The translations under genes and the position numbers were made by a program. Source: Glutamicibacter arilaitensis Re117 (GTDB lineage: Bacteria; Actinomycetota; Actinomycetes; Actinomycetales; Micrococcaceae). From it: a stretch of 64,000 nucleotides of DNA. Below the pieces are notes generated by a model, which was not told the origin of the DNA, searched no databases, and saw only the letters and a program-made list of their open reading frames with translations. Positions 1,790 to 27,063 of this stretch are shown here, one piece after another (the first letter of the stretch is position 1; each line of letters opens with the position of its first letter). The stretch covers positions 1 through 64,000 of the forward strand of contig NC_014550.1 of assembly GCF_000197735.1 (NCBI RefSeq), written 5' to 3'.

Positions 1790-2255
1790 AGCCAAGAAAT
1801 CACAGGTGTGGATAAGGCTGTGGATGATCTGGTGACGACCTGCGGATAAGTATGGGGTCCCATGTGGACGTTAAAAACCATGAAACTCAGTGTCAACAGG
1901 TTGATGGAACTGAGTGTCATGTTCAACCACAGATTGTTCACATGCACAATCGTGGTCGGGTCAGGGGATATGAGGCTTATCCACAGTATCCACAAGGGTT
2001 ATTAACACTTCTCCTTTAAACACTTATTCATCCAAATAACGAGTCCACTCCCTCCCCAAGCCAAAAACCTGTGCAGAACAAAATTTATGTTGCTTCGTCC
2101 ACACTTCATTCGCTGAGCTGACGTTGCGCTATCAGGGCGTGGCAAGATTAGATGGATAAAACGTGCAACTACCTGCTCTATGCTTAAGAACTTGGCGAGG
2201 GAAAAACCTTCTTGGCCTGACTTAAGACTTATGGGTTCCGAAAGGCGGATTTTTC
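1790..2255. other. oriC: dnaA-dnaN intergenic region, canonical oriC location
   Basis: A 466-bp gene-free region at the usual actinobacterial origin position. Perfect DnaA boxes are TGTGGATAA at 1807-1815 and TTATCCACA at 1977-1985. Near-consensus boxes are TGTGGATGA 1819-1827, TGCGGATAA 1841-1849 and GTATCCACA 1986-1994. An AT-rich tract at about 1999-2041, beginning GGTTATTAACACTT, is a candidate unwinding element. Two perfect boxes is few for an actinobacterial oriC; a richer cluster lies at 16.6-17.06 kb. Position and content support an origin role here, but the sequence alone does not show which region fires. Confidence 0.75.
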
Positions 2256-10187: not shown

Positions 10188-10807
10188 GCACGCCCTCGAC
10201 GCCACGCCCCAGCGGCAGTGCCCCGAAGAGCGCCGCGCCGCGACCTACCCAGGTAAAGCGTCCGGCTCCAACCGGCACCGGTGCCCGTCCGGCTAACGCC
10301 GGAGCACGACCAGCTGCAGGCCAGCAGCGCCCAGCCGGTGCTCGTCCAGCCGGACAGCGCCCAACTGGAGCGCCGCAGCGTCCAACCAGCCAGCAGCGTC
10401 CGGCTAACGGCCAGGACCGCCTGGTTCGTCCGGCGCCCAAGGCAAAGGTCCGCAAGGCCCGCCTGCTGGTCTCCAAGGTCGAGCCGTTCTCGGTACTCAA
10501 GCTCGCCTTCCTGCTCTCGGTAGCCTTCGGTGTGATCACCGTGGTCGCCGCCGTCGGCATCTGGGCAGTTCTGGACCTGACCGGAACTTTCGACTCGTTC
10601 AACCAGCTGATGCGTGATGCTATCGGCGCGGACGGCAACTTCGACCTGCGCGACTCCATGTCGCTTGGCCAGGTAGCTTCCTACGCAACGATCATCGCCG
10701 TAGTGAACGTCGTGGTGATTTCCGTGGTTTCCATGCTTGGCGCGGTGCTGTACAACATCGCAGCTTCGCTGGTTGGCGGCGCCGGTGTGACCCTCACCGA
10801 CGACTAA
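10184..10807 (+). CDS. DUF3566 transmembrane protein
   Basis: A 207-residue protein coupled to gyrA by a 4-nt ATGA overlap, the place where actinobacteria carry a DUF3566 protein. The first roughly 85 residues are a low-complexity Pro/Ala/Arg/Gln-rich cytoplasmic segment. The C-terminal half has two hydrophobic helices ([20 protein letters not shown] and a second around [19 protein letters not shown]), consistent with the DUF3566 domain. Function is unknown; it is probably an inner-membrane protein cotranscribed with gyrase. A large terminator follows. Confidence 0.9.
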
Positions 10808-15637: not shown

Positions 15638-15688
15638 CCCGAGGCTCCGGCGATTCCTTAACGGTTATTGTCGGGGCCTCGGGCTTTT
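15638..15688 (+). terminator. Terminator after ppiA
   Basis: Stem CCCGAGGC (15638-15645) with GCCTCGGG (15676-15683) and a long loop, followed by CTTTTAAT. Confidence 0.7.
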
Positions 15689-15721
15689 AATCCTTCTCTC
15701 TCACATGCAAGGCAGGTACCG

Positions 15722-16579
15722 ATGTCCTACGGACAGGTTTCCCCAGAAGGCCAAGCTGCGCCTACGTGCTTCAGGCACCCGCAGACGATCTCTTTTGTTT
15801 CGTGCAACCGCTGTGGACGTCCGGTCTGCCCGCAATGCCAGGTCTCGGCACCTGTTGGAGTGCAATGCGTGGAGTGCGTCGCCCAAGCGAACAAGCGTCT
15901 ACCGCAGCAGAAGACCCAGTTCGGCGGCCGGCTGCGCGCCGGGGCGCCAATCGTGACCTATACGTTCATCGGGCTCAATGTCCTGGTGTACGTGCTGCAG
16001 TGGGTCATTCCCGGACTCACCAACCAGCTTGTTCTGGCACCTGCACTGGCGGCCTATGAGCCATGGCGGCTGATCACCAGCGCCTTTGCCCACTCCACGA
16101 GTTCGCTGCTGCATCTGGCGATGAACATGTACGGCGTCTACATTTTCGGCACCATGCTCGAGCCGCGGATGGGGAGACTGCGTTTTACCTGGCTCTATCT
16201 GCTCAGCGCCTTCGGTGGTTCCTTGGGGATCCTTCTGCTTAGCGCACCACTGAGTGCAACGCTCGGTGCGTCGGGCGCACTGGCAGGCCTGTTCCTCGCG
16301 ACTTTCGTAGTGTTCCGCTCCAATAAGCAAGCGCTTCGCTCAATGGGAATCATCCTTGCACTGAACGTGGCTCTTGGCTTCTTCGTGCAGAGCATCTCCT
16401 GGCAAGGGCACTTGGGAGGCGCAATTCTGGGCATTCTTGCCGCTTGCTGCATCGTGCTTATTCCACGGAGTAATCCACAGCGTGCTCGCATTCAGATACT
16501 TTTGCTCACAGCCTTGTCGGTAGCGCTGCTGACGGGGATCTATGTTTCAACGGAAGCTGTGAAGTGGCCACTTGGATAG
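15722..16579 (+). CDS. Rhomboid-family intramembrane serine protease with N-terminal zinc finger
   Basis: A 285-residue protein. Residues about 12-50 form a B-box-like zinc ribbon (CxxH ... CNRCGRPVCPQCQ ... CVEC). The rest is a six-helix rhomboid core: HLAMNMYG supplies the conserved Asn, LGASGALAG the nucleophilic Ser, and WQGHLGGAILG the catalytic His. It should cleave membrane proteins within the bilayer; no substrate can be inferred. ATG 15722 (MSYGQVSPEGQ) fits the family; the longer reading from 15668 runs into the ppiA terminator. It is followed by the DnaA-box cluster. Confidence 0.93.
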   Translation: MSYGQVSPEGQAAPTCFRHPQTISFVSCNRCGRPVCPQCQVSAPVGVQCVECVAQANKRLPQQKTQFGGRLRAGAPIVTYTFIGLNVLVYVLQWVIPGLTNQLVLAPALAAYEPWRLITSAFAHSTSSLLHLAMNMYGVYIFGTMLEPRMGRLRFTWLYLLSAFGGSLGILLLSAPLSATLGASGALAGLFLATFVVFRSNKQALRSMGIILALNVALGFFVQSISWQGHLGGAILGILAACCIVLIPRSNPQRARIQILLLTALSVALLTGIYVSTEAVKWPLG

Positions 16580-16614
16580 TTCGAAAAGAACTGCGTTAGT
16601 TATCCACACCGATT

Positions 16615-16644
16615 ATCCACATTGTTAATAACTTACAAGCGTGT
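16615..16644 (+). repeat. 30-bp direct repeat, copy 1
   Basis: It runs from within a DnaA box through the 13-mer to ACAAGCGTGT. The second copy at 16881-16910 differs at two positions (16622 and 16641). Confidence 0.85.
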
Positions 16645-16880
16645 AAGTATCAGAGGGTAGGTGTTATTAACACCCCTACTCCCCCATGAATTCAGGGATA
16701 TTCATCTTCGGGTACACAATACTCACATCTTTACCCACATCTGTGGATAAGTTTTAAACAACCCCTGTAGATAGCGCATATACGAATCGACAGGTTGTTA
16801 ATAACTTGGGGTTCGAAAGTTTAAACGAACCACTGGGTTGGTATGGAATTCAGGGCGCTTAGGCCTTATCCACAACCGGA

Positions 16881-16910
16881 ATCCACAGTGTTAATAACTT
16901 ACAAGCATGT
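16881..16910 (+). repeat. 30-bp direct repeat, copy 2
   Basis: 28 of 30 bases are identical to 16615-16644. It begins ATCCACAGTG and ends ACAAGCATGT. Confidence 0.85.
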
Positions 16911-17060
16911 CATTTTGAATCGAGATATATAAGTTGACTAGTGTGAATATCTGAATCCTCGCTCGCTAGCCAAAGTTCTCCCCGGTTGTGGATAAACTTG
17001 TGAACAAGTGTTTATAAAACTTGTGCACACCGGCTGTGGATAAGCGCTTTATCCTGTGGA

Positions 17061-17678
17061 TTAGTCGGTGATGATGGGCAGGATGAGCGTGGTGGCAAAC
17101 AAGATCATGAGCAGCCCTACGAGTACATCAAGTACCTGCCACGCTTTGGGCTTGGCGAAGAATGGCGCAAGGAAACGTGCGGCATAGGCAAGCGCGAAAA
17201 ACCAAACGAAGCTGGCCACGATTGCACCGACTGCGAAATAAGCTGCGCCCTCTGCCTGGGAAGTCGCGATCGAGCCGAGAAGCAGCACCGTGTCGATATA
17301 AACATGCGGGTTGAGCCAAGTTAGGGCCAAAACTGTTCCGATAACGGAAATCTTGGCTGTGCGGCCCTGTATGGCTGAAACTTTGAGTGCTTCAGGTTTT
17401 ACTGCTCGGCGGAAAGCGAAAATCGCATAACTTAGCAGGAAGATGAAACCCCCAACGCGGGCAAACACCAGCAACAATGGGGCTCGTTCAACCAGTGCGC
17501 CCATGCCGCTGGCGCCGGCCGTAATCAGGATTGCATCCGAGAGTGAGCAAACCAATGCGGTGATAAGAACATGTTCTTTCCTGATGCCTTGGCGCAGGAC
17601 AAACGCATTTTGTGAACCAATGGCGACGATGAGGGACAAGCCAGTGGTGAAGCCGAAGACTAGGGATCCGAAGAACAT
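17061..17678 (-). CDS. lysE: LysE-family amino-acid exporter
   Basis: A 205-residue membrane protein of the LysE/ArgO family, which exports basic amino acids. It has about six hydrophobic helices and the family motifs GLSLIVAIGSQNAFVLRQG near the N terminus and ALTWLNPHVYIDTVLLLGS in the middle. The divergent LysG/ArgP-type regulator supports lysine/arginine export. ATG 17678 gives the family N terminus MFFGSLVFGFTTG; TTG 17684 is two residues longer. The stop codon lies in the last near-consensus DnaA box of the preceding cluster. Confidence 0.92.
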   Translation of the reverse strand: MFFGSLVFGFTTGLSLIVAIGSQNAFVLRQGIRKEHVLITALVCSLSDAILITAGASGMGALVERAPLLLVFARVGGFIFLLSYAIFAFRRAVKPEALKVSAIQGRTAKISVIGTVLALTWLNPHVYIDTVLLLGSIATSQAEGAAYFAVGAIVASFVWFFALAYAARFLAPFFAKPKAWQVLDVLVGLLMILFATTLILPIITD

Positions 17679-17748
17679 GTACAAACTGTAGGAGATTCGT
17701 AAATCGACGTCGAACTTAAGATCCTGAATCTAGATTAGAGTTCCTTAT

Positions 17749-19093: not shown

Positions 19094-19351
19094 CTATTTC
19101 CAGCCTGTTGTCATGAAGAATCCGACCATCGCGATGCCGAAACCGACCACGATGTTCCATCCGCCGATATTCGGAATTGGGTACAGAGTCTGGGAAACGT
19201 AATAAACGATGATCCATACCAGGCTGAGAAGCATCAAGCCGAACATCACTGGCTTGTACCAGCCTGGCATCGGCTTATCGATGGCATGGGCGCTCTGGCG
19301 CGACTCCTGCGGCTGTGAATTCTTCTTGCGTCGTGGCTTTGACTCCGGCAC
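19094..19351 (-). CDS. crgA: Cell division protein CrgA
   Basis: An 85-residue membrane protein of the actinobacterial CrgA family, which helps coordinate FtsZ-ring assembly and recruits septal synthesis proteins. A basic, hydrophilic N terminus is followed by two membrane helices (KPVMFGLMLLSLVWIIVYYV and WNIVVGFGIAMVGFFMTTG), with the conserved PNIGGWNIVVGF loop. GTG 19351 is preceded by GAGGGAG. Origin-proximal position between rhomboid/cyclophilin and sortase/pabA is typical. Confidence 0.95.
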   Translation of the reverse strand: MPESKPRRKKNSQPQESRQSAHAIDKPMPGWYKPVMFGLMLLSLVWIIVYYVSQTLYPIPNIGGWNIVVGFGIAMVGFFMTTGWK

Positions 19352-24188: not shown

Positions 24189-25663
24189 CAGGTGCTGCCT
24201 CGCCGTCTTGGTCGCGTTCCAATGTGGTGATGATCTGGTCGAGGTTCCCCAGGACCTGCTGGTTCATCTCGATCAGTCGTTGCTGGCCGCGGGCTTCGGC
24301 CGCGGTGATGATCTGCACGACCTGGTGACGATGTTGCCTGTGCTCGGGCAGGAACTCTGAGGTGGTGACGAACATCGGGCAGTTCAGGCACGCGTTCGCG
24401 TGCGGGCAGGACTTCTGGACTGGCAGTCCGCAGAAGCCGTTGGGTAGGGCCTGGGTCGCTCGCCCGACCCGTTGCTTGGCCTAGGCCGCCTCGGCCAATG
24501 GTCCGTCGGGGTCGAGGGTGACGGTTTCGCCCTTGATGTTGACCTTCCGCGCGGCTTCCCAGTGCCGGCGGATCGTGGTGTCGCTGAGCCGGGCGTAGTG
24601 GGCTGTCATGACGTGGGAGTCGTGGTCGAGAATTCGCCGGACTACTTCTTGGGGGACGTCTCGGTTGATTAGCCTGGTGCCCAGGGTGTGCCGGAAGCTG
24701 TGCGGGACGACGCGAACGGGTTGGCCGTGCTCGTCACGGACGGCGCAGCGCTTGAGCCAGCGGTGAAGGGCCTTGCGGTAGACGCCGTCGCTGACCGGCT
24801 CCTCGCCGTTGTCGTTGTGGGTGACGCGGGGGGAAGAGCACCGGCGTCCCGTCCGGCCAGTCCTCTTGGAGGCGGTGTCGCTGCGCGGTGATGGCGTCGG
24901 CGAGGTCGGCGTCGATGGGCACCAGGGCCTCGCGTTTCATTTTGTGGTTGAGGTAGCTAAGGTAGGGCGCGCCCTCGCCGTCGTAGGCGATGCAATCGGT
25001 CGGCAGGCGGACGGTGTCGGTGATGCGCAGCCCGCACCCCATCAAGATCTGCGTGATCAGCGTGTAGCTGGGGTTGTTCCACTTGGCGAGGTTGTTCGGG
25101 TTCTCCAGTTGGGTCATCACGGTTTCGCTCAGCGCGCGAGGTTGCCGGATGGCTTCCTTGGGGAAGTCCTCGCTGTAGAACATCACCGCTGAGGGCAGAG
25201 AGTCATCCCAGCCGTGTTGCCGGATGGTGGTGAAGAACAGATTCAGCTGCCCGATTAGCATGCGGTGTTTCACGGTGCCCGAGTATCGGGCGTGCAGGTG
25301 GGTGAGGTAGCGTTCCAGCGCCTCCCGGTCCAGCTGTCCCAGCCCCTGGATGGAGGGTGCCGCAGCGGTGAGGAACTGCCCGAAAGAGGTGACCGCCCGG
25401 GTGCCCGAGGAGACGCTGACCACTCCGAGTCCCGTGGCCAGGCGCCAGCGGGCCCATCGTTTGGCCAAGGCCTTGAGCCAGAGCTGTGGGATGTCCTCGA
25501 ACGAGATGCGGGCGAGCCGCTTGTCCTTGATGCCGAGCTCACGCAGCCGCCAAACATCCCGGCCGTACTCGGTGTCCCAACTACTCGACTGACGGTACGT
25601 TCGGCGTCGAACGCGCCCCGTCCTCGGTAGTTGTTCGGGTATCAGCGGGCTGGGTGTGCTCAC
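24175..25663 (-). pseudogene. tnpB: TnpB-like tyrosine recombinase, broken by frameshift and stop
   Basis: The full reading would be about 496 residues. The first 275 or so are intact: GTG 25663, then the SAM-like domain and the catalytic Arg segment MGCGLRITDTV. A six-G run at 24828-24833 has one base too many; shifting frame restores VTHNDNGEEP, then HSFRHTLGTRL with the catalytic HxxR, and AHYARLS with the nucleophilic Tyr. A TAG at 24481-24483 then interrupts, after which the Cys-rich C terminus (CGLPVQKSCPHANACLNCP) continues to 24175. CAG to TAG is the simplest change. GTGA overlap with tnpA. Confidence 0.88.
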
Positions 25664-26769
25664 AGTTGTACCTCTCTGCCGGTGAACCAGCCCGATTCCT
25701 CCAGCGCCCGGCGGGCGTCCTCGGCACTCAGATGCCCGTAGACGGCGGCAGTAGTGGTGATGTCGGCGTGGCCGAGCAGCTTGGAGACGATCTCGATGGG
25801 CACACCGTCACGCAGCATCCGGGTGGCCGCGGTGTGGCGGTACCAGTGCGGATCGAAGTTGATCCCTGTACGTCGGCGCAGCCGTTTGACCAGGTCGTAA
25901 ACGGCTGTGTAGGTCAGCGGGTGACCGTGGGGTCGACCCCACAGGTTCACAAAGACGTAGTCGGAGTCCAGATCGCCGTACTCCAGATACAGATAGTCGG
26001 AATAGAGCCGAACCAACTCTGCACTCACCGGCACCGTCCGCGGGTTGCGTGACTTGGAGCGTGCACCGTTGCCGTTGACCCGACGCTGAACCGTGATCTG
26101 GGACTCAGCCGCGGCGATGTCCTCATGTCGTAGACCCAGCGCCTCCCCGATCCGCATCCCGGTGTCAAACAGCATGGCGAACAGGAACCGGTCCCGCAGA
26201 TGGCCACAAGCATTGAGGATCGTCTGCACCTCGGCGGCGGTTAATACGCGCGGGAGTTTGCGCTGCGCGCTCAGCACGATGGCGCGCCGTGGCTGCGGTG
26301 TGCCCTTGCTGATGTGATGCAAGAACGGCTTCCAGCCCGAGCTTCGGCCTCCGGCCGGCTGCCACGTCTTCAGCAACTTCCCGAGGTCGATGCCGTGGCG
26401 CGCGGAGTGCTGATAGAACGCGTTGAGAGCGGAGAGCTTGCGATTGACGGTCGCTTCAGTGCAGTGGTGTTCCACCGTCGGCAGGATCGAAAGCGACCCG
26501 TCGCGCAGGGTCAGCGGACGGCGCAGCCAGGCGACGAACTCAGCGACGTTCTCCAACCGCACCTCACGCCAGTCCAGGGCCTGGCCACTGAGGAACTCAA
26601 ACCAGTCCTTCAAATCGTGGGCGTAGGCCTTGACCGTGTTGGGCGACCGCTCAATCTGGGTCAAGTACGCCAGGTACCGTTCTATCGGAGCCACCGGGGC
26701 CCCGTCATCGCCCAGCACCGTCCATGACTCCCCGCCATCGAACGGGGAAAGCACACGCTGGACAGACAT
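25660..26769 (-). CDS. tnpA: TnpA-like tyrosine recombinase/integrase
   Basis: A 369-residue phage-integrase-fold recombinase. The N-terminal core-binding domain contains IERYLAYLTQIERSPNTVKAY in the first 50 residues. The catalytic domain keeps Arg in FDTGMRIGEALGLRHED, His-x-x-Arg in HWYRHTAATRML, His in LLGHADITTT and the Tyr nucleophile in AAVYGHLS. ATG 26769 follows GGAGGACTG, a strong ribosome site, so the upstream extension to 27009 is rejected. The size fits Tn554 TnpA. Likely still functional. Confidence 0.92.
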   Translation of the reverse strand: MSVQRVLSPFDGGESWTVLGDDGAPVAPIERYLAYLTQIERSPNTVKAYAHDLKDWFEFLSGQALDWREVRLENVAEFVAWLRRPLTLRDGSLSILPTVEHHCTEATVNRKLSALNAFYQHSARHGIDLGKLLKTWQPAGGRSSGWKPFLHHISKGTPQPRRAIVLSAQRKLPRVLTAAEVQTILNACGHLRDRFLFAMLFDTGMRIGEALGLRHEDIAAAESQITVQRRVNGNGARSKSRNPRTVPVSAELVRLYSDYLYLEYGDLDSDYVFVNLWGRPHGHPLTYTAVYDLVKRLRRRTGINFDPHWYRHTAATRMLRDGVPIEIVSKLLGHADITTTAAVYGHLSAEDARRALEESGWFTGREVQL

Positions 26770-27063
26770 CAGTCCTCCGTGCGGCGCATCATGACAGCCT
26801 GCGTCCACGGCGACTTCGGGCACCTGGACACATTCTGCGGTTTGGTCGAGCCGCCCAATCTCGATCGACGGAGACGACGGCCCGTCCTCATCCTCTGAGT
26901 ACCAGGGGTCATCGGAGCCTTTCTGGGTGTTTGTGAGGGTGAGAGCGCTGGCGGTCCGTTCGAGACGGACGCGCGAGGGCTGAGCATGCGGATGCTGAAA
27001 GTTGTGCAACCTACTTCCGAAAGTGACAACGGCGACGCGGAAGCTTCTCGTCCGTCGCGTCCT

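Follow-up and report, generated by a model that had tools for sequence, protein, structure and literature searches.

What is a dense, gene-free cluster of DnaA boxes doing 14.3 kb from the dnaA-dnaN region of the same chromosome? The window, by which we mean the whole stretch of 64,000 nt that was analysed, begins at base 1 of a 3,859,257-bp contig, just upstream of dnaA, and its features are collected in Table 1. In the reading that we prefer, to which we give a probability of roughly 0.55, the cluster serves as a conserved site of DnaA regulation outside the origin and would act by titration of DnaA or by control of its nucleotide state. This reading draws on the architecture of the cluster, its conservation, its attachment to crgA/rhomboid and an intact origin signature elsewhere, each of which can be read from the DNA itself.

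The first-pass annotation of this DNA had described six exact boxes in the spacer between the rhomboid-family and lysE genes, and all six were recovered as TTATCCACA or TGTGGATAA (16600+, 16613+, 16742-, 16866+, 16987- and 17035-). The spacer is also free of genes, as had been stated: rhomboid (+) ends at 16579 and lysE (-) at 17061, with no gene in the 480 bp between them. The open reading frames 15668..16579 and 17061..17684 are presumably a rhomboid and a LysE-family exporter, respectively, the names being taken from that annotation. The cell-division gene crgA, which the element accompanies throughout the class, is about 2 kb from it in the window, and three genes stand in between: lysE, one for a regulator and one of smr type.

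It was found that the window holds 8 exact DnaA boxes compared to 0.19 expected, with at least 8 in 0 of 100 shuffles, and 23 one-mismatch boxes compared to 6.75 expected. The whole genome holds 31 exact boxes, six of them in the rhomboid-lysE spacer and two at dnaA-dnaN; by this whole-genome count, the spacer is the densest exact-box cluster of the genome and there is no second cluster of such kind, the next closest groups being one pair and three boxes within 4 kb. The earlier count of two exact boxes at dnaA-dnaN was right (1807- and 1977+), but the dnaA locus is richer once one mismatch is allowed, as six near-boxes lie upstream of dnaA at 68-247 and three additional ones lie in dnaA-dnaN, which then has five in total including the two exact boxes. 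The AT-rich 13-mer TTGTTAATAACTT is present exactly at 16622 and 16795 and with one change at 16888, again as reported. The sequence GTTAATAAC occurs 5 times in the window compared to 0.08 expected, and one of these occurrences is inside the dnaA-dnaN origin (1998-2006, minus strand).

Elsewhere in the genome, we observed a close-set inverted pair of exact boxes at G000:C3:3804019-3804041, about 55 kb to the left of dnaA, and three exact boxes no more than 4 kb apart at 2.22 Mb (G000:C3 2224404-2228145).

The repeats noticed previously are the two copies, 266 bp apart, of a composite element of about 52 bp (16600-16651 and 16866-16916); the repeat of 28/30 identity is real and belongs to a 45-bp unit at 84%. 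The order within the composite is box A, 4 bp, box B, 1 bp, the degenerate inverted box TGTTAATAA, C, and the palindrome TTACA-N4-TGTAA, with the tandem boxes A and B 13 bp apart. Three single inverted boxes are placed between and after the composites. The genus comparison covered 18 genomes (the genome of the window and 17 others), with identity measured against the window, and identity was 84% across the composites, 100% at box 3 (16742-) and 57% in the remaining spacer. Box 3 was identical in 18 of these genomes, boxes 5 and 2 in 17 each, box 1 in 14, box 6 in 13 and box 4 in 9, and the box distances 13/129/124-125/121/48 are common to the window, G002, G004, G016 and L068. The absence of conservation in relatives had been named in advance among the results that would speak against the cluster, and the outcome was the opposite: the spacer gave BLASTN matches in 17 of the 17 other genus genomes, and the element reaches far beyond the genus. 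BLASTN with the spacer as such matched 0 of 20 genomes outside the genus.

Table 1. Positions in the window of the DnaA-box cluster, its parts and its neighbours, with the basis of each entry.
Feature	Position	Strand	Basis
dnaA-dnaN intergenic region, canonical oriC	1790..2255	+	two adjacent boxes, AGG and GTTATTAACACTT at 1977-2010
Rhomboid-family gene, 5' neighbour of the element	15668..16579	+	ORF; relative in 119/119 sampled family genomes
Composite copy 1	16600..16651	+	model R1 match 49.5 bits, E 1.7e-14 (training-set member); 31/52 positions invariant in 18 genus genomes
Parts of copy 1	box A 16600-16608, box B 16613-16621, degenerate inverted box 16623-16631, palindrome TTACAAGCGTGTAA 16633-16646	+	sequence
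Hairpin-capable GGTGTTATTAACACC	16661..16675	.	not genus-conserved: mean identity 0.67, 0 invariant positions
Exact DnaA box on its own, between copies 1 and 2	16742..16750	-	identical in 18/18 genus genomes
AT-rich 13-mer TTGTTAATAACTT on its own, not directly preceded by boxes	16795..16807	+	mean identity 0.75, 0 invariant positions in 18 genus genomes
Composite copy 2	16866..16916	+	model R1 match 43.6 bits (training-set member); 26/51 positions invariant in 18 genus genomes
Parts of copy 2	box A 16866-16874, imperfect box B 16879-16887, degenerate inverted box 16889-16897, imperfect palindrome 16899-16912	+	sequence
Exact DnaA box on its own, 3' of copy 2	16987..16995	-	identical in 17/18 genus genomes
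Exact DnaA box on its own, close to the end of lysE	17035..17043	-	identical in 13/18 genus genomes
LysE-family exporter gene, convergent 3' neighbour	17061..17684	-	ORF; adjoins the element in genus loci
crgA	19094..19351	-	ORF; Pfam CrgA match at 19097-19348

The distribution of the element was evaluated in the named loci around gyrA, which are the best 80 of 593. Among these best 80 of 593 loci, DnaA boxes lie 3' of rhomboid and ahead of crgA on the opposite strand in many Micrococcaceae and Microbacteriaceae. We defined a three-box core by a tandem spacing of 12-13 bp, an inverted spacing of 10-12 bp and no more than 4 mismatches overall, and evaluated it in the 59 named loci (within the best 80 of 593) that hold rhomboid plus at least 600 bp beyond. 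In 46 of the 59, the core is present on the 3' side of rhomboid at a distance of no more than 2.6 kb; it is absent there in the other 13, and these we count against the regulatory reading. A resampled control, with one copy per locus of the 80 named loci, gave no three-box core. The 124 core matches in the best 80 of 593 loci, with geometries counted separately, lie 3' of rhomboid (90), upstream of dnaA (23), in dnaA-dnaN (7) and elsewhere (4).

For the search of more distant genomes, a simple composite pattern was found to be too strict (17 of 119 genomes of the order, with 0 for the reversed-pattern control) and missed the window's own copy, and a sequence model was used instead. The model was built from 65 composites, with G000 and G179 in the training set, and was searched in 148 class genomes, of which 147 have CrgA. 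At E ≤ 0.01 it matched 117 of the 148; no match was found at this threshold in 31, which again counts against the regulatory reading. Among the matches listed, 81 (in 66 genomes) reach at least 25 bits, and of these strong matches 64 (51 genomes) are no more than 400 bp 3' of crgA and 70 (55 genomes) no more than 3 kb 3' of it. The corresponding 400-bp values among the matches listed were 35 of 69 for weaker matches and 99 of 150 for all; as a yardstick for chance, about one in ten thousand random matches would land in a 400-bp target if the genome has 4 million bases.

The 11 of the 81 strong matches listed that are not within 3 kb 3' of crgA are also counted against the regulatory reading. 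Eight of them are in family f38, and in the four f38 loci inspected (L255, L257, L268 and L269) the element adjoins rhomboid and ppiA and therefore stayed with rhomboid there. In G218 and G356 the strong match and crgA are on different contigs, and for the strong match of G297 CrgA rows are absent among the matches listed. In the phylum sample, the model matched 12 of 119 genomes at E ≤ 1e-5. Five of these matches, in five genomes, are outside the class, and each is beside a CrgA-like open reading frame, recognised by tblastn in L288 and L292 and by eye in L289, L290 and L294. The composite is weak or partial in genomes of Streptomyces size (f34), a further point against the regulatory reading. 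In nine f35 loci (L262-L267, L270, L272 and L273; position about 1500-1550), boxes flank the palindrome on both sides in an almost symmetric way, which suggests that the palindrome may be the centre of an assembly.

Three family genomes in which rhomboid is displaced from dnaA, by 107 kb (G018), 61 kb (G126) and 329 kb (G116), bear on whether the element belongs to dnaA or to its neighbours. Boxes or the composite are still found 3' of rhomboid in all three, and crgA was not seen in the examined stretch of G126. These comparisons of sequence indicate that the element is attached to crgA/rhomboid and not to dnaA. In 28 class genomes, dnaA and crgA are separated by 9 kb at the least (G314) and 176 kb at the most (G358), and by about 23 kb in G255; the distance to oriC is not fixed, and this is counted against the regulatory reading.

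The composite is also present at dnaA in some lineages, inside dnaA-dnaN (L110:4593-4652, L121:4702-4761, L133:3896-3955 and L142:4488-4545) or upstream of dnaA (G025, C1:2151237; G229, C1:337238), and therefore either the origin or crgA can host the module. In G025 and G229 it is present at dnaA and at rhomboid alike, and L121 and L133 have no box, with up to one mismatch allowed, behind rhomboid. Placement of the composite or core at dnaA leaves room for an origin-related role. The occurrence of the module at either place fits a DnaA-assembly unit that acts on one DnaA pool, and it is also the expected look of a module shed by the origin.

Two further observations were made in the genomes with a displaced rhomboid. 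A composite-like match lies at L206:17842-17899 (G116, 57.8 kb), about 40 kb from dnaA. The stretch of G018 that separates dnaA from the displaced rhomboid (C1 20000-80000) has little net strand asymmetry, as if it had been recently inserted.

In E. coli, datA is a group of DnaA boxes in non-coding DNA away from oriC; it includes an IHF-type bending site, stimulates the hydrolysis of ATP and restrains initiation. The element is likewise a non-coding DnaA-box cluster outside oriC, but the layout of the boxes differs. The E. coli positions whose letters were read, which we take to be the ADP-releasing sites DARS1 and DARS2, have three boxes, of which two are in tandem with a spacing of 12 bp and the third is inverted so as to face them, and the element similarly has two boxes in one direction and one opposed. 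However, the inverted box starts 14 bp on in DARS1 and DARS2 and mostly 10-12 bp on in the element, the two spacings in the window being 13 and 10. The DARS geometry of 12/14 was found in 0 of the 80 named loci (best 80 of 593) and in 0 of 48 class and phylum loci, a 12/15 geometry was found in 12 of the 80 named loci (best 80 of 593), and the commonest geometry was 12/10 in the named loci and 13/10 in the class and phylum loci. The excerpted text of PMC5742627 describes the orientation and equal spacing of DARS boxes and the action of datA with IHF. Because the second spacing differs, we do not class the element as DARS.

The S. coelicolor clusters, reportedly named H69, H24 and D78 by Smulczyk-Krawczyszyn and colleagues (Smulczyk-Krawczyszyn et al. 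2006), consist like the element of non-coding DnaA boxes within tens of kb of oriC, and deletion of such Streptomyces clusters near oriC is said to raise initiation and extra copies to lower it. That study is not known to describe a palindrome or a phylum-wide link to crgA. A non-coding cluster within about 100 kb of oriC, the arrangement in Streptomyces, is found at 14.3 kb in the window and at about 23 kb in G255. The latter genome is a 9.17-Mb single contig with a central dnaA, which we infer to be Streptomyces-like, and one of its three extra clusters in 200 kb adjoins crgA. Two more box clusters of G255, besides oriC and the crgA site, are less than 100 kb from dnaA (C1:4406103-4406406 and 4466969). 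In the literature matches listed, a set whose scope did not extend to Smulczyk-Krawczyszyn et al. 2006, the excerpted texts describe no crgA-linked or rhomboid-linked element; the excerpts of PMC6265350 and PMC3937824 mention crgA, the DnaA box and Streptomyces, but on other matters.

The regulatory reading can be put as a mechanism. DnaA would bind the two tandem boxes and face the third, inverted, low-affinity box, and the adjoining palindrome would be a further weak pair of DnaA sites or the site of a dimeric partner protein. Being close to oriC, the site would be doubled soon after initiation and so would be able to withdraw DnaA or to alter its nucleotide state. Either withdrawal (titration) or a nucleotide-state change of the datA or DARS kind would help to set the time of the next initiation. 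That DnaA occupies the site in vivo, which way initiation is shifted and what the palindrome does are predictions of this mechanism. A more specific form of the regulatory reading is proposed tentatively, as a possibility: the element may be an ancient, dedicated DnaA-control site of the Actinomycetota, with a core of two tandem boxes and one inverted box and a palindrome read by a putative partner protein, inherited with crgA and not with the origin, and having the role of datA or DARS.

Somewhat doubtful is pure titration, in which the cluster would act as a sponge of high affinity close to oriC and would leave the DnaA-bound nucleotide as it is. The six exact boxes, which form the densest such cluster of the genome close to oriC, accord with a sponge, and precedents are given by the DnaA-box clusters near oriC in B. 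subtilis and S. coelicolor (PMC4585315, excerpt) and by the enrichment of DnaA boxes near oriC in E. coli (PMC12371093, excerpt). Nevertheless, the fixed spacing, the inverted third box and the palindrome are conserved, yet a sponge needs none of them, and a single composite is found in many loci.

The conserved palindrome raises another explanation, namely that the site serves some other dimeric protein, concerned with chromosome organisation, segregation or membrane anchoring, which recognises TTACANNNNTGTAA and has DnaA as a partner. Conservation of the palindrome alongside the boxes is consistent with this, as are the boxes on both sides of it in the nine f35 loci. However, its half-sites resemble weak or degenerate DnaA boxes, so that DnaA alone could bind there, and we regard the explanation as quite doubtful. 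MtrA was considered as the binder of the palindrome and rejected, as the motif in the excerpted text of PMC6265350 is not a palindrome of such kind.

The first-pass annotation had proposed that the cluster was an origin module, a former origin, or a titration or reactivation locus. Of these, titration or reactivation is favoured and the origin readings are not, as the canonical signature is intact at dnaA-dnaN and absent at the cluster. The dnaA-dnaN spacer of the window carries TTATCCACA-GTATCCACA-AGG-GTTATTAACACTT, and a signature of two adjacent boxes, three bases and GTTA is present in 71 of 101 dnaA-dnaN regions; it was not found at 16600-17043. The window's signature resembles the boxes, GC cluster and DnaA-trio of Firmicute origins, as described in the excerpt of PMC7561715. 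Compared to an oriC of the B. subtilis type, with its two-box basal unwinding unit and DnaA-trio, the crgA element is similar in its tandem boxes and AT-rich DNA and differs in having a wider box spacing and neither GC cluster nor trio.

Averaged over 76 of the 116 candidate elements, the composite has an AT content of 0.55-0.56, which is followed immediately by 0.39 and, at 90-150 bp, by 0.45-0.48, and the drop to 0.39 argues against an origin; in 71 origin units, the values are 0.60-0.64 and then 0.44. On the other side, the rhomboid-lysE spacer of the window is more AT-rich than dnaA-dnaN (mean 0.58 vs 0.54; best 50 bp 0.74 vs 0.68), and this speaks for a second origin, as does the presence of the composite at dnaA in some lineages.

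Cumulative GC skew had been suggested as a check, and its minimum was found at 16,765, inside the cluster and not at 1790-2255. The minimum is within the cluster also in G002, G009 and G014, which taken at face value favours a second origin, whereas it is 1 kb off in G004 and at 10,788 in G016, outside the cluster in both; the skews of G004, G009, G014 and G016 are for the first 40 kb of the contig only, without the left flank. Third-position skew of the coding strand is about -0.11 to -0.145 on either strand, and for the dnaA-gyrA genes skew is about -0.1 to -0.27 in most relatives (exceptions include L136 at -0.02, G042 at +0.24 and G112 at +0.30). Because dnaA-gyrA are on one strand and the genes beyond are mostly opposite, a minimum is produced at the cluster without an origin. 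The raw minimum at 16,765 is therefore mainly an effect of codon usage and gene direction, and raw cumulative skew was dropped as evidence for an origin at the cluster once gene direction had been separated. After strand correction, the window retains a weak residue favouring the cluster (0-16.8 kb, -0.050 ± 0.029; 16.8-40 kb, +0.025 ± 0.016).

The genomes with a displaced rhomboid are informative here. In G018, the corrected skew switches from -0.244 ± 0.024 to +0.078 ± 0.040 at dnaA, and at rhomboid, 107 kb off, it is unchanged (+0.124, then +0.123). In G116, skew is negative in 15 of the 16 blocks between rhomboid and the end of the contig; the block holding dnaA has +0.051 ± 0.063, and values further on are close to zero. 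G116 is thus better evidence against an origin at rhomboid than for one at dnaA. G126 was set aside as it gave no usable skew, and it is, with the dnaA block of G116, a weak point of this evidence. In G018 and G116, whose two loci are separated by 107 and 329 kb, respectively, an origin at dnaA accounts for the asymmetry better than one at rhomboid does. A second origin at the cluster is unlikely, and we consider it distinctly improbable that the cluster is such an origin or a former one.

Genus g26 (G042 and G112) was considered as a strong-skew test and rejected because its skew is confined to dnaN-gyrA, with no general replichore signal; the third positions of gyrA and gyrB have +0.29 to +0.37. 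In G042 (L168) and G112 (L184), recF, gyrB and gyrA have third-position GC skews of +0.29 to +0.41, where most relatives have negative values; the positive skew ends right after gyrA, and the dnaN-gyrA stretch of this genus is perhaps a transferred or converted segment. In the window itself, two adjoining minus-strand open reading frames at 24734-27009 look by eye like tyrosine recombinases, with a GC-skew bump of 0.12-0.14 at 23-26 kb, and this stretch is possibly a small integrated element.

Transcriptional control, or a terminator region, for rhomboid and crgA/lysE is suggested by the position of the element between gene ends and is very improbable, because the neighbouring genes are convergent, which leaves no ordinary promoter, and the one promoter-like and one terminator-like site found are at about the level of shuffles, the terminator-like one being inside the rhomboid gene. 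An Rfam search gave no family above the cut-off and a sub-threshold match only.

To our knowledge, the limit of initiation to once per cycle in actinobacteria is poorly understood. A compact, conserved and deletable non-coding site in a fixed neighbourhood would open the control of initiation to direct tests in numerous harmless species, and the palindrome may serve as bait for a possible partner protein of DnaA. The locus is also a warning that in such bacteria a raw GC-skew minimum together with a box cluster can misplace the origin. Rather than a second origin, the element is probably a switch or a sponge that helps to time the copying of the chromosome.
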